Source of the DNA: Minisyncoccota bacterium
Lineage (GTDB): Bacteria > Patescibacteria > Paceibacteria > UBA9973
Assembly: GCA_028696935.1 (NCBI GenBank)
Contig: JAQVGE010000009.1
Location: 1-14,930, forward strand
Reading direction: 5' to 3'
DNA length: 14,930 nucleotides
In this document: positions 7,612 through 14,421 of the stretch, in pieces
How the letters are laid out: each line of letters begins with the position of its first letter
Position numbering within the stretch: position 1 is the stretch's first letter
Program-made: the position numbers and the translations under genes
Notes under the pieces: generated by a model
The model's database searches: none
What the model was told of the DNA's origin: nothing
What the model saw: only the letters and a program-made list of their open reading frames with translations

Positions 7612-7640
7612 ATAATATCGGATTAATCTAATAACTACAA
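7612..7640 (-). promoter_or_regulatory. dCMP deaminase promoter, predicted leaderless, overlapping the htrA stop
   Basis: Reading on the minus strand: TTGTAG (7640-7635), 17-nt spacer, TATTAT (7617-7612), 6 nt, then the ATG at 7605. The geometry and the -35 hexamer are identical to the thyA promoter. The TTGTAG hexamer is also the last Leu codon and the stop of the upstream htrA gene. Confidence 0.7.
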
Positions 7641-8885
7641 CCCAAGCGGAGCTTGTTCAAGTATAACTACAATAGTTTTAATCAGACCTTTTGAGTAAAC
7701 CCTCATACTCAAAAAATCACCAATTTTTTTATTTCTTATAACATAAGATAAAACTCGATCGGAGTCTATTTTCTGACCATCGACTTCGAGAATAATATCA
7801 CCTTCTTGTAATCCAGCTTTTTCCGCTGGAGAACCAGATAAAATAGCTAGATCATCCTCCGTCTGACCTTTTTGGATAAACACCCCATAATCGTATGGTA
7901 AATCATATATAGTTTTTACGTTTGGCGTTATAAAAACATATCTGATTCCAATATATGGCCTTATGATTCGACCTGTTTTTCTCACAGATTCAATAACATC
8001 TTTAACACTATTTATTGGTAAAGAAAATCCAATGCTCGACGAATTCTCAACAACTGCTACATTAATACCAACAACTTCTCCATAGATATTAAGAAGTGGC
8101 CCTCCAGAATTACCTTTATTAATTGCCGCGTCAGTTTGAATGACTTTATCTAAGTATTCTTTCTGACCAAAATTATCACCTGCTGTTAAAGACCGAGATA
8201 ATCCAGAAATAACTCCCGCTGAAACAGTGTTCTTAAATTCACCTAAAGCATTTCCAATAGCAATAACTGTTTCTCCTACTTCAAGCAAATCAGAATCTGC
8301 TAGAGTTAAATATGGTAAATTATTATCTTCTATCTTAATCAGGGCAATATCTAAGACAGGGTCACGATCTAAAACTTTTGCTTTATATTCTCTACCATCG
8401 TTTAATAAAACATTAAAAATTACATCATCCTGATAAACAACATGTCGATTGGTAACAATTAAGCCATCAGGTGATATAAGAAAACCTGAACCACTTCCAA
8501 TTTGTTTTCCTCCGTCTGTTTTTGTAATTATTATTGAGATAACAGCTGGTTTGGCTTTTTTGACCGCACTAACTACTGTCGGAGCCTCCTCCTCTTTTGT
8601 TTTTTCTTCAGGAACAATCTGATTAGCAACTAAAGACTCTGCTTCTACAATTTTTTCCTCCTCCTTTTCTTCAATAAAAGGAATAGAAACCGAAGAAAAA
8701 TCTTTCTGACTTGCTCTATATTCTTTAACTAAAAAATTTAAGATATCTACCCTATTGGTCCAAGCAAATAAAAAGACTGCCCCTGAAAATATAATCATAG
8801 TTACTAAGCTAATTAAAGTAGCTTGAACAATGTTGTTATAAAAATTTTTCTTTATTTTTGAATTAATATTTTTTATTTGCTCCAT
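7635..8885 (-). CDS. htrA: Membrane-anchored HtrA/DegP-type serine protease with PDZ domain
   Basis: 416 residues. One N-terminal membrane segment (about 20-42, ATLISLVTMIIFSGAVFLFAW) places the enzyme outside the cytoplasmic membrane. An acidic Glu/Lys-rich linker (about 70-102) follows. The trypsin-like domain has the catalytic triad His148 (TNRHVV), Asp179 (LDIALIKIE) and Ser260 (GNSGGPL). One PDZ domain spans about 320-405 (SGSPAEKAGLQEGDIILEVDGQKI). The family degrades misfolded envelope proteins. It starts 4 nt after the stop of the CPBP protease gene, so the two form an operon. It ends in TTGTAG, which doubles as the next gene's -35 box. Confidence 0.96.
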   Translation of the reverse strand: MEQIKNINSKIKKNFYNNIVQATLISLVTMIIFSGAVFLFAWTNRVDILNFLVKEYRASQKDFSSVSIPFIEEKEEEKIVEAESLVANQIVPEEKTKEEEAPTVVSAVKKAKPAVISIIITKTDGGKQIGSGSGFLISPDGLIVTNRHVVYQDDVIFNVLLNDGREYKAKVLDRDPVLDIALIKIEDNNLPYLTLADSDLLEVGETVIAIGNALGEFKNTVSAGVISGLSRSLTAGDNFGQKEYLDKVIQTDAAINKGNSGGPLLNIYGEVVGINVAVVENSSSIGFSLPINSVKDVIESVRKTGRIIRPYIGIRYVFITPNVKTIYDLPYDYGVFIQKGQTEDDLAILSGSPAEKAGLQEGDIILEVDGQKIDSDRVLSYVIRNKKIGDFLSMRVYSKGLIKTIVVILEQAPLGL

Positions 8886-8889
8886 AATC

Positions 8890-9504
8890 TTAACTAGTTA
8901 CAAAAAACCCAAAAACCATAGCCACAAAATTAAGAATGGTATGAGAAATTGAAACTAAAATTAAATTTGGGTATTTATAATAAATCCAAGCAAAACCAAT
9001 TCCTGCAATAAAAGTTAGAGGTAAAACAAAAGTTGCATTGCTATAAATAACATGAATTAAAGCAAAAACCATAGCATTTAAGACAATAATAAAAAACGGG
9101 TTTGTAAAAGCTTGTCTGAGTAGTTTCATTAAAATTCCACGAAAAATTACTTCTTGCAATACACTAATAGGAATAAAAAGTAAAAGGAACTTGGCATTCC
9201 TCCACCAATTTAAAAACGGACTATGAGGAACAATAGCTGAAAGCCAAAAAAGAAAACCGACACCAGCCATAGTAAAAAGAGCATAAACAGAAAAATCCTT
9301 CATAAAACCCTTAAAAATTCCTAAGTCAAGCCATGACCACCTAGCATGCCTAACTATTCCATACATCAACAGAGTAATTCCAAGAAGCATAACAATCCGC
9401 AAATCACTCGGAATCACTTTAAAATATAGAAGGAGTGTCGGAATAACAAAAAGATATAATATTTGAACCCAAACTAATTCCTTTTCCTTAGATAAATTAA
9501 ACAT
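8890..9504 (-). CDS. CPBP-family intramembrane metalloprotease
   Basis: 204 residues, with several membrane segments (about 11-30, 36-52, 72-92, 106-120, 136-155, 158-176 and 183-203). The three CPBP (Rce1/abortive-infection-like) motifs are visible: QEVIFRG (117-123), normally EExxxR, here with Gln117 for the first Glu; FALIH (147-151); and SHTILN (187-192). These would hold the metal in the membrane. The role of bacterial members is mostly unknown; some cleave membrane peptides or protect from bacteriocins. It is the first gene of an operon with htrA. The start is fixed by a TATAAT box 6 nt upstream. Confidence 0.9.
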   Translation of the reverse strand: MFNLSKEKELVWVQILYLFVIPTLLLYFKVIPSDLRIVMLLGITLLMYGIVRHARWSWLDLGIFKGFMKDFSVYALFTMAGVGFLFWLSAIVPHSPFLNWWRNAKFLLLFIPISVLQEVIFRGILMKLLRQAFTNPFFIIVLNAMVFALIHVIYSNATFVLPLTFIAGIGFAWIYYKYPNLILVSISHTILNFVAMVFGFFVTS

Positions 9505-12139: not shown

Positions 12140-12448
12140 TTATTTATATCGACAAATAAAACTTTTTAAATCTTTTGCTATATTACTTTTTGAAAGAGAA
12201 TAACAAATTCTTTTGCCTTCTCGATCAGAATCAAGCAAACCTTCTTTTGTTAAAGATTGTAAGTGATGAGAAGTAATCGCAATACTCAAACCTAAATAAT
12301 TTGCAATATCTGAAACACAAACCTTTTTGTTATTAAAAATAAGACAAAGTATCTTTAACCTATTTGAATCACCAGCTGTTCTAAGTTTTTTAGCTAATAA
12401 TTCTAATTTCTGTTTTTCTTGTTTTATCGACATAAATAATACATTCAA
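12140..12448 (-). CDS. ArsR/SmtB-family winged-helix repressor
   Basis: 102 residues. Dimeric ArsR fold: AGDSNRLKILCLIF (25-38), then the helix-turn-helix KVCVSDIANYLGLSIAITSHHLQSLTKEGLL (42-72) and the beta-wing DREGKRICYSL (75-85). The metal motif of ArsR/CadC (CxCDL) is only partly kept: VCVSD has Cys44 but Ser46. Cys35, Cys82 and Cys99 are also present, so the ligand may be another metal, a thiol oxidant, or none. The first ATG (12448) lies inside the operator; Met6 (12433) is an alternative start and would leave the operator fully upstream. It is followed by the MITE-like element and the glutaredoxin gene. Confidence 0.92.
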   Translation of the reverse strand: MNVLFMSIKQEKQKLELLAKKLRTAGDSNRLKILCLIFNNKKVCVSDIANYLGLSIAITSHHLQSLTKEGLLDSDREGKRICYSLSKSNIAKDLKSFICRYK

Positions 12449-12529: not shown

Positions 12530-12946
12530 TTATCGATGTAATCCTAATCTTTGACCTTGGCCTTGATTCTGGCCCTTGCCTAGACCACGTCTTTGCCCAT
12601 CAAGAGGTCTGTCACCACCACTTGTTCTTAATCCTAATTCTTTACGAATAGTATTCGCCTCTTTAATTTTCCCTTCTTGAGCCAATAGCCATGCCTCTCT
12701 GAATTTAGAAAAATTGTCTTGATTTATAACCTCATCAACTCTTCCATTTGGAGATCTCTCAGAAACTAAATCTCTCCACTTCTCGTAATTTCCTTCTTCC
12801 ATAACTTTGGTCATTTCTTCACTAAGCTCCTGATTGCAATTGGAACCTTTTTGAGAAAAATCACCTTGATAAGCAAAAACAATTGAACTAATACCGAGAC
12901 CTAAGACCAAAGCCATTAAACCACTCATCATTAATTTATTTTTCAT
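12530..12946 (-). CDS. Small secreted protein of the ECF module
   Basis: 138 residues. An N-terminal signal peptide (KNKLMMSGLMALVLGLGISSIVFA) has a likely cut after Ala25. The mature part has a helical middle (about 38-105) with NYEKWRDLVSER, NFSKFREAWLLAQEGKIKEA and ELGL, a pattern I recall from short exported proteins of Parcubacteria-type genomes. A Gly/Gln/Arg-rich tail (GKGQNQGQGQRLGLHR) follows. One cysteine (Cys37) remains after cleavage. No enzyme motif was seen. It lies downstream of a sigma factor and membrane protein and has its own copy of the two-block ECF-type motif, so it is probably a target of that sigma factor. Confidence 0.85.
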   Translation of the reverse strand: MKNKLMMSGLMALVLGLGISSIVFAYQGDFSQKGSNCNQELSEEMTKVMEEGNYEKWRDLVSERSPNGRVDEVINQDNFSKFREAWLLAQEGKIKEANTIRKELGLRTSGGDRPLDGQRRGLGKGQNQGQGQRLGLHR

Positions 12947-12998
12947 ATTTATTTTATCTCTTAAAATGAGATTTTTTATTATTAATTAAGCTAATAAA

Positions 12999-13021
12999 TG
13001 TAGATAATCATTTTCTCTACA
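12999..13021 (-). other. Hairpin in the 5' leader of the secreted-protein mRNA
   Basis: TGTAGA (12999-13004) pairs with TCTACA (13016-13021) around an 11-nt loop, just after the predicted start of transcription. The leader of about 75 nt also contains ATCTC and GAGAT, which can pair near the start codon. The effect is unknown; the 6-bp stem is weak. Confidence 0.3.
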
Positions 13022-13029
13022 CTTATTAT

Positions 13030-13060
13030 TACGCAAGAGTTTAATAATTTATCTCATTTT
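13030..13060 (-). promoter_or_regulatory. Two-block ECF-type promoter motif, copy 1 (secreted-protein gene)
   Basis: Minus strand: AAAATGAGATAA (13060-13049), 12-nt spacer, TTGCGTA (13036-13030). The same two blocks at the same spacing stand before the sigma gene. The first block is exactly the last codons of the membrane protein (Lys-Met-Arg-stop), so the promoter overlaps that gene. Transcription would start near 13023, giving a leader of about 75 nt. Confidence 0.7.
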
Positions 13061-13816
13061 GTAATCTAACCTAAAATCTCTATTTCCGTTTAGTGAATTC
13101 ATTCTACCAACATTGTTAAACCATGGTCTAATTTCTTCGGCAATAAAAACATACCCCCCTTCTTTTCTCCCAATTATCTTTATTTCTTGACCATTTTCCA
13201 AAACAATTTTAGGACTTATAAAAACATCATCCTTGTTTATTTTAATATTCCAAACTATATTATTTTTATCTTTTATTTCTAGTTTATCATCTTCAGCAAA
13301 AATAATTTCTCCGGACAAAAATCCCTGTTCTGGTTGCATCCACATAATTTCTCGGTCAAAAATAAAATTACGATAAATAGGAACATTCCTGTGTATAGAT
13401 TGTTCAATTTTATCCTCTATTCGAAGATAATAAATCAGTGAACCTAAAATAACTGTTATTAATAAATAGAAGCCAACAATTAACATAGCTCTATACCTAT
13501 AACCTAAATAGGTCTTTTTGTAATAAAATTCTCCCAGAAAAACAAAGAAACCCAAGCAAATAAACCAAAAATAAGGTAATGTTTGTAAAATAAAAGAAAA
13601 ACCGAATCTTCTATACAGACTCCAATCATTATTTACTAAAAAAGAGATTGTTATTGCAAAAGAAATCGACCCGATCACAATCGACAAAACAACTAAAAAC
13701 CAAAATAATAATTTTCTTAAATAAAAAAACTTCTTAGAAATTGGTCGGATGCCTTTTTCTTTTATTTTTTCTAAAGCTATTTGACTTATATTTTTATTCT
13801 CCATTTTATTTTTCAT
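13049..13816 (-). CDS. Three-helix membrane protein, probable anti-sigma factor
   Basis: 255 residues. A short cytoplasmic N-terminus (NISQIALEKIKEKGIRPISKKFFYLRK) is followed by three membrane segments (about 35-62, 72-96 and 108-130) and an extracytoplasmic part. That part contains a beta-rich, OB-like stretch (about 165-231: GEIIFAEDDKLEIKDK, then EIKIIGRKEGGYVFIAEEI). The gene overlaps the end of the sigma gene by 11 nt; a second ATG at 13804 lies one base after the sigma stop. This layout is typical for a membrane anti-sigma factor that holds its ECF sigma until a signal arrives. No zinc anti-sigma motif (HxxxCxxC) was seen, so the role rests on context and topology. Confidence 0.85.
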   Translation of the reverse strand: MKNKMENKNISQIALEKIKEKGIRPISKKFFYLRKLLFWFLVVLSIVIGSISFAITISFLVNNDWSLYRRFGFSFILQTLPYFWFICLGFFVFLGEFYYKKTYLGYRYRAMLIVGFYLLITVILGSLIYYLRIEDKIEQSIHRNVPIYRNFIFDREIMWMQPEQGFLSGEIIFAEDDKLEIKDKNNIVWNIKINKDDVFISPKIVLENGQEIKIIGRKEGGYVFIAEEIRPWFNNVGRMNSLNGNRDFRLDYKMR

Positions 13817-14381
13817 TAATTAATTTTTCATACTCGACCTTAAATAGTTTCTTACCCCTGGCTATTAAATTCCCAATTGTACTTACTGGCTTCTTTAAAA
13901 TATCAGCAATTTCAAGATATTCCTTTTCTTCTAAAAACCGAAGAATTAAAACCTCTCGGTATTTTTCACTCAAGAGGCTCAGAGCTTTTTCAATCTTTTT
14001 CTTTTCGTAAGAGATATCTATTTCCTTTTCTATGTCGAAAAGATCTTTCAAACCCTCCAAATCTTTATCCTCCAAATAAACAGTTGGACGAACAACCCTT
14101 TTTCTTATTTCGCTAACAGTTTGATTATGAGCTATTCGATAAATCCAAGAAGAAAATTTAAGACTGGGGTCAAAATCATTTAAATTATAATAAGTCTTTA
14201 TCAAGACTTCTTGAAGAACATCTTCTGTGTCTTCGCGAGAGAATTTAGATATTCTTTGTATGTATCTTAAAAGTTTTTCTTCATATCTTTTAGATAAACA
14301 AAAAAACCAATCAGCATCAATCAGTGCCTCCTTAACTAAATCAATATCTGATTTATTACCACAATCTTTATGATTAATCAT
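13806..14381 (-). CDS. ECF-type sigma factor (sigma-70 family)
   Basis: 191 residues. The sigma-2 domain (about 28-97) contains YIQRISKFSREDTEDVLQEVLIKTYYNL and the -10 recognition segment KFSSWIYRIAHNQTVSEIRKR. A linker follows, and then the sigma-4 domain (about 128-182), with LLSEKYREVLILRFLEEKEYLEIADILKKPVSTIGNLIARGKKLF forming the -35-binding helix-turn-helix. There is no sigma-3 domain, as in ECF factors. It is the first gene of a module with an overlapping membrane protein and a secreted protein. A motif shared with the secreted-protein gene lies 9 nt before its ATG, pointing to self-activation and a nearly leaderless mRNA. Confidence 0.95.
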   Translation of the reverse strand: MINHKDCGNKSDIDLVKEALIDADWFFCLSKRYEEKLLRYIQRISKFSREDTEDVLQEVLIKTYYNLNDFDPSLKFSSWIYRIAHNQTVSEIRKRVVRPTVYLEDKDLEGLKDLFDIEKEIDISYEKKKIEKALSLLSEKYREVLILRFLEEKEYLEIADILKKPVSTIGNLIARGKKLFKVEYEKLINEK

Positions 14382-14390
14382 CTAATATAG

Positions 14391-14421
14391 TACGCAAAAC
14401 GAGTTAATTTTATCTCATTTT
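14391..14421 (-). promoter_or_regulatory. Two-block ECF-type promoter motif, copy 2 (sigma gene)
   Basis: Minus strand: AAAATGAGATAA (14421-14410), 12-nt spacer, TTGCGTA (14397-14391), then 9 nt to the ATG at 14381. Both blocks and the spacing are identical to copy 1, while the middle differs. The GAGATAA block would be the -35 and TTGCGTA the -10 of the module's own sigma factor. Confidence 0.72.

Follow-up and report, generated by a model that had tools for sequence, protein, structure and literature searches.

The source DNA is a stretch of 14,930 nucleotides (contig JAQVGE010000009.1, assembly GCA_028696935.1) from a Minisyncoccota bacterium, an uncultured organism with a tiny genome, and "the window" refers here to that whole stretch. 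Its minus strand carries an operon of three genes, in the order ECF sigma factor, membrane protein, and a small protein whose N-terminus resembles a signal peptide. The features of the locus are as follows.

13806..14381, minus strand: ECF sigma factor gene, 191 aa, Pfam Sigma70_r2 and Sigma70_r4_2
13049..13816, minus strand: membrane protein gene, candidate anti-sigma factor; the true start is likely the ATG at 13804, where most orthologues begin with M-E-N or similar
12530..12946, minus strand: gene for a small secreted helical protein, 138 aa, predicted output of the second promoter; signal-peptide-like N-terminus by eye
14391..14417, minus strand: predicted sigma gene promoter; -35 TGAGATAA at 14417-14410, 13 nt, -10 TGCGTA at 14396-14391; exact
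13030..13056, minus strand: predicted secreted-protein gene promoter; -35 TGAGATAA at 13056-13049, 13 nt, -10 TGCGTA at 13035-13030; exact
12992..13028, minus strand: leader hairpin 1, a 15-pair helix that coincides with or adjoins the expected 5' end of the mRNA
12956..12972, minus strand: leader hairpin 2, separated from the ATG by 9 nt, from the individual MFE fold

A preliminary description of this DNA reported two identical copies of a two-block motif, AAAATGAGATAA-N12-TTGCGTA, and this proved exact: the copies lie on the minus strand at 14421-14391 and 13060-13030, and the window holds no third copy with up to 3 mismatches allowed. Two matches to this named motif occurred in none of 200 dinucleotide shuffles. 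Markov shuffling of the window produced an unnamed repeat of the same design (12- and 7-base blocks, gap 3-20) in 18 of 200 cases. Taken by itself, the repeat is therefore only mildly surprising, and it is conservation that makes the motif real. Conservation also redrew its limits. The blocks of 12 and 7 bases are indeed identical within the window, but the AAAA at the start of block 1 is not conserved among relatives, and the core that emerges from the comparison, TGAGATAA-N13-TGCGTA, is narrower than first described. The first block had further been said to be made from the last codons of the membrane protein, and the output -35 (13056-13049) does end in the TAA stop of that gene (K-M-R-stop).

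Protein relatives, where the organism is given, belong to Paceibacterota, Nomurabacteria or Kerfeldbacteria. A search with one genome per species returned 25 loci, among them one close locus (L001, 70% identity). In the 197 genomes around the genome of that locus (G001), some ECF match is found in 165 and a close sigma orthologue (64-71% identity) in 10, G001 counted in. The three-gene order is identical in all 10, and 9 of them have additional ECF-like genes, one or two each (two or three in total). The third gene of G016 encodes a different short secreted protein, and its site is therefore counted as lying before the third gene and not before an orthologue.

Alignment of orthologous upstream regions, as the preliminary description had proposed, placed a site in register ahead of the sigma gene and another ahead of the third gene, and did so in 11 of 11 operons (the window and 10 relatives). 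The 22 sites comprise 8 exact matches to the core, 7 with one mismatch, 4 with two, 2 with three and 1 with five; 15 of the 22 thus have at most one mismatch, and those with more than one were accepted by position and spacing and not found blindly. The output sites have 0-1 mismatch in 10 of 11 operons, with five in G014 (TGCAACAA..AACGTA). The sigma-gene sites range from 0 to 3 mismatches in the 10 orthologous operons, with at most one in 5 of 11 operons (window included), two in G001, G004, G010 and G016, and three in G002 and G021 (CGCGACAA). All 22 sites share G-35, A-32, A-30, A-29 and CGTA at one spacing, and 20 of them fit TGNRAYAA-N15-CGTA; at position -31, 19 sites have T and 3 have C. 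When the four sites of a third target (see below) are included, the tally over 26 sites is G-35 in 26, A-34 in 18, G-33 in 23, A-32 in 26, T-31 in 23 (C in 3), A-30 in 26 and A-29 in 25, together with CGTA in 26, the last not being independent because CGTA was part of the criterion by which sites were recognised. Position -34 is looser in the sigma promoters (C in 5, A in 4, G in 2) than in the output promoters (A in 10 of 11).

The output -35 includes the membrane-gene stop codon in 7 of the 11 operons, and the stop lies 2-6 nt upstream of it in G009, G010, G014 and G016. Since the output site is kept in these four operons even though it falls outside the membrane gene, it is not a coding relic. 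Also noticed, in 7 of the 11 operons (e.g., L046 and L048-L051), was a TATAAT hexamer whose end lies 6-10 nt upstream of the sigma start codon; it is perhaps an overlapping housekeeping promoter. It overlaps the CGTA in the sigma leaders of G002 and G021 and is seen in some output leaders as well, for example that of G005.

The core motif was sought with at most one mismatch in 11 genomes, namely the 10 operon-bearing relatives and G146. There were 23 sites in 10 genomes and none in G146, and the pattern read backwards, as a control, gave 2 matches. Nine sites stand before the operon's third gene, 4 before the sigma gene and 4 before a second secreted gene; the rest are 5 inside genes and 1 (G010:C145) without a clear target. 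Most sites, 18 of the 23 when the unclear one is counted, thus avoid genes and lie ahead of these targets. As a control, 12 of the 32 relatives lacking a sigma match were scanned; the 2 matches obtained were both inside genes, with no intergenic sites. The motif is therefore not scattered at random across genomes.

The third target is an unlinked gene for a second secreted protein, rich in Ala, Lys and Thr, in 4 of the 10 genomes (G001, G004, G014 and G021). The proteins are homologous across the four, with the weakest match in G021 (E 9e-9).

128-577 of L026, minus strand: second secreted protein gene, with the same promoter motif; also in L075, L080 and L085

The leaders of this gene share the sequence GGTCGAT in all four loci.

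How far the promoter type extends was surveyed over 75 sigma loci, 11 of which form the close clade; the helix pattern was unrecognised in 13 of the 75. Among the 64 other loci, a TGAAA-like -35 stands 15-18 nt upstream of CGTA in 13 (imperfect in two), in none of which is there a C at -31; 3 have TAAGAT-N15-CGTA, and 48 showed neither type of site. The same rule, applied to the clade, scores 7 of 11 loci as TGAGAT-like, 2 (TGCAAT, G001 and G004) as TGAAA-like and 2 (CGCGAC, G002 and G021) as having no site, so the call for the clade rests on the whole 8-base element and its spacing. In 8 distant genomes, exact TGAAAG-N16-CGTANTA has 11 matches, 8 of them in operons of this kind. It is found both before the sigma gene and at the membrane-gene 3' end in G127 and G157, and at the membrane-gene 3' end in G146, G065, G030 and G076; the other 3 matches lie elsewhere (G160, G030:C2 and G076:C42), and G121 has no exact match. 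A secreted-type gene follows the site in G157, G146, G065, G030 and G076. The sigma promoters of G030 and G076 are also TGAAAG (L065, L066) and L002 has TGAAA at both places, so that the sigma and secreted-gene sites are both TGAAA-type with N16 in G157, G030, G076 and L002. Distant Patescibacteria thus carry TGAAAG-N16-CGTA at the corresponding places, which indicates that motif and linked sigma factor change together.

Several smaller observations belong to these lineages. The output promoter of TGAAAG lineages lies within the last membrane-gene codons (L185, L183; DERNIFQMR in G146) and overlaps the code. In G127:C7 (L190), the ORF 235 nt beyond the membrane-gene 3'-end TGAAAG site is rhodanese-like by eye and not secreted. 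The exact TGAAAG-N16-CGTA in G030:C2 (L188 1501, minus strand) has the leader GGGTCGAAT, with no ORF of at least 40 aa starting within 250 nt.

The sigma factor has the ECF (group IV) domain layout, with Pfam regions 2 (31-95) and 4 (129-178) only, and it scores above the TIGR02937 cut-off. Its best NCBIfam match is SigW (NF007223) at 95.3 bits, short of the 209-bit cut-off for a SigW equivalog, and SigW, whose domain layout it shares, is also its best match among solved structures. B. subtilis SigW promoters read TGAAAC-N16,17-CGTA (PMC2375139). The sites described here have in common with them the -10 CGTA, the spacing and T-36 G-35 A-34, and differ in having G-33 for A, mostly T-31 for C, and A-30/A-29 for C/T. 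As judged from sequence, the -10 is therefore the ordinary CGT-type ECF element and the -35 is mostly without the AAC that was an early ECF hallmark, although AAC is described as no longer defining (PMC8103513). The preliminary description had called the -35 atypical in this respect, which is apt for most sites and goes along with altered -35-contacting residues; C at -31 is kept in 3 sites. The same description overlooked the wider regulon, the leader hairpin and the SigW-typical -10 and spacing.

The residues expected to read the -35 are altered in a corresponding way. In the SigW-DNA structure, R175 reads G-35, T168 and T171 read A-34, and K170 contacts the G opposite C-31, with weak density for this last contact (PMC6713349). 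A gap-free alignment of the recognition helices shows that T168 and R175 are kept in the window sigma factor, while K170 is replaced by G, T171 by N and R172 by L. The helix reads STVGNL or STIGNL in 11 of 11 clade members, and residue 170 is Ala in 11 of 12 TGAAA-type loci with a readable helix. The -35 would thus depart from AAC because the Lys170 with which SigW reads the C of AAC is Gly here, whereas the Arg that reads G-35 is retained. Retention of G-35 goes with retention of the Arg, and loss of the Lys with a mostly missing C-31, but this co-change is a correlation over essentially one evolutionary event. The rule is also imperfect, with GTVAVR helices going with two -35 types, TAAGAT-N15 (3) or TGAAAG-N17 (1), and with neither type of site found at the GTVAVR loci L059 and L063.

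Taken with the register sites in every operon and a site type that follows the sigma lineage, these observations make it very probable that the two blocks are, as had been proposed, the -35 and -10 of the linked ECF sigma factor, which would activate its own operon and the secreted protein as its main output. The motif before the sigma gene suggests positive autoregulation. A different sigma factor, either another ECF sigma of the same cell or the housekeeping sigma, seems improbable. The further ECF-like genes in 9 of 10 relatives would allow recognition by a paralogue, and the TATAAT hexamers would suit the housekeeping factor; yet the motif type tracks the linked sigma across lineages, the genomes without a sigma match have no intergenic sites, and TATAAT is absent from some sigma leaders whereas CGTA is in all. 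Less credible again is a role of the sites as operators, bound by some DNA-binding regulator, in place of a -35/-10 pair. Operators also can consist of two blocks at fixed spacing, and an ArsR-type helix-turn-helix gene (12140-12448) lies just after the secreted gene, but the blocks are not palindromic by eye, their spacing and CGTA match the SigW type of ECF promoter, and within the three-gene operon the sigma factor is the sole regulator. A chance repeat whose first block is fixed only by coding (Lys-Met-Arg-stop) can practically be set aside despite the frequency of such repeats in shuffles, given that the site is in register in all 22 places and that 11 sites before sigma genes and 4 before third genes lie outside the membrane gene.

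The promoter of the secreted-protein gene is followed by a structured leader. The protein itself has no Pfam match, and its 86 homologues are unnamed or hypothetical except for two records labelled glucose dehydrogenase; its structure alignment comprised the window sequence and 36 of these 86 matches. Across 11 sequences, the 15 pairs of hairpin 1 are 88.5% formed, and 10 pairs show compensatory changes. None of 500 shuffles reached the values for paired cells, changed pairs, changed cells or covariation, and 2 of 500 reached the pair-type count, statistics that ignore the relatedness of the sequences; slid controls pair at 33-46%. RNAalifold, run on 10 sequences with no structure given, returned essentially the same helix (13 pairs, 9 two-sided changes), and for 13 leaders, including two distant ones, the MFE z-scores lie between -2.8 and -7.7 (window, -4.6). 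The two arms vary together, which suits a structured RNA better than an operator bound by a protein. When the clade leaders are folded individually, 10 of 11 form hairpin 2; its support is weaker, since RNAalifold gave no consensus for it on the alignment.

A 5'-terminal stabilising stem-loop is one whose stem starts within a few nucleotides of the transcription start site and which prolongs the life of the mRNA. The ompA, papA and aprE leaders have mRNA-stabilising stem-loops of this kind (PMC3997798). Hairpin 1 resembles them in being placed at the expected 5' end of a secreted-protein mRNA, and differs in that the start is here predicted from the promoter and that the leader (12956-13028, minus strand) has no Rfam match in the window. 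By analogy, hairpin 1 may stabilise the output mRNA; the hairpin at the expected mRNA 5' end probably acts either in this way or in controlling translation.

The conserved membrane protein gene adjoins the sigma gene, and its product is a candidate cognate anti-sigma factor that matches no Pfam or NCBIfam family and no anti-sigma family. Its AlphaFold model (pLDDT 82, pTM 0.70), with a structure alignment of the window protein and 41 of 56 other matches, consists of a helix at 10-21, helices at 28-62, 82-99 and 107-131, and an OB-like domain at about 158-236. From charge and helix count we infer that the N-terminus is inside and the OB domain outside. Class II (CnrY) anti-sigma factors bind sigma through two short cytosolic helices in a domain of under 50 residues (PMC7406223). 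In the model, helix 10-21 and the first part of helix 28-62 precede the membrane and recall this arrangement, with putative binding to the sigma factor. As in other operons of an ECF sigma factor and a membrane anti-sigma factor, the membrane gene comes after the sigma gene and a motif before the sigma gene suggests autoregulation. The differences are the three predicted membrane helices with an outer OB-like domain, and the output promoter that includes the partner's stop codon in most operons; the residues at 170 and 171 and a partner matching no Pfam or NCBIfam anti-sigma family likewise set the pair apart from SigW.

Comparison supports the core of a regulatory circuit, namely the two-block site before both genes, its fixed spacing, the change of its type with the sigma lineage, and a third target in some relatives. 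Beyond this, the short cytosolic N-terminus of the membrane protein would hold the sigma factor in an inactive state until a surface signal, sensed by the outer OB-like domain, frees it. The freed sigma factor would then steer RNA polymerase to the two-block sites, raising its own operon from the more variable site and the small secreted proteins from mostly near-perfect ones.

Most Patescibacteria are uncultured, so gene regulation in this group is little known. The evidence supports a circuit of a known kind, ECF sigma autoregulation. Its particular traits are a variant -35 element, an output promoter sited where the candidate anti-sigma gene ends, and a leader with RNA structure. No description of such a system, or of the leader, in Patescibacteria/CPR was found in the openly licensed literature, among the matches listed (titles and abstract openings). 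More speculatively, and with the odds rather against it, the operon may represent an ancient and widespread envelope-sensing module of Patescibacteria in which the sigma factor dropped the AAC contact and re-specified its -35, the output promoter came to lie in the anti-sigma gene 3' end, and new structured 5' leaders add control at the RNA level (stability or translation). Comparative sequence has in this case yielded a sigma factor, a predicted code for its promoters, its targets (two or three) and a candidate for the sensor. It also offers a natural example of a -35 code that differs in parallel with the residues expected to read it, which bears on specificity switching in ECF sigma factors.

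Elsewhere in the window (7635-9504, minus strand), an HtrA-like trypsin/PDZ protease with a hydrophobic N-terminus is encoded beside a CAAX-type (Rce1-like) membrane protease, and these proteases are possible candidates for releasing the sigma factor.
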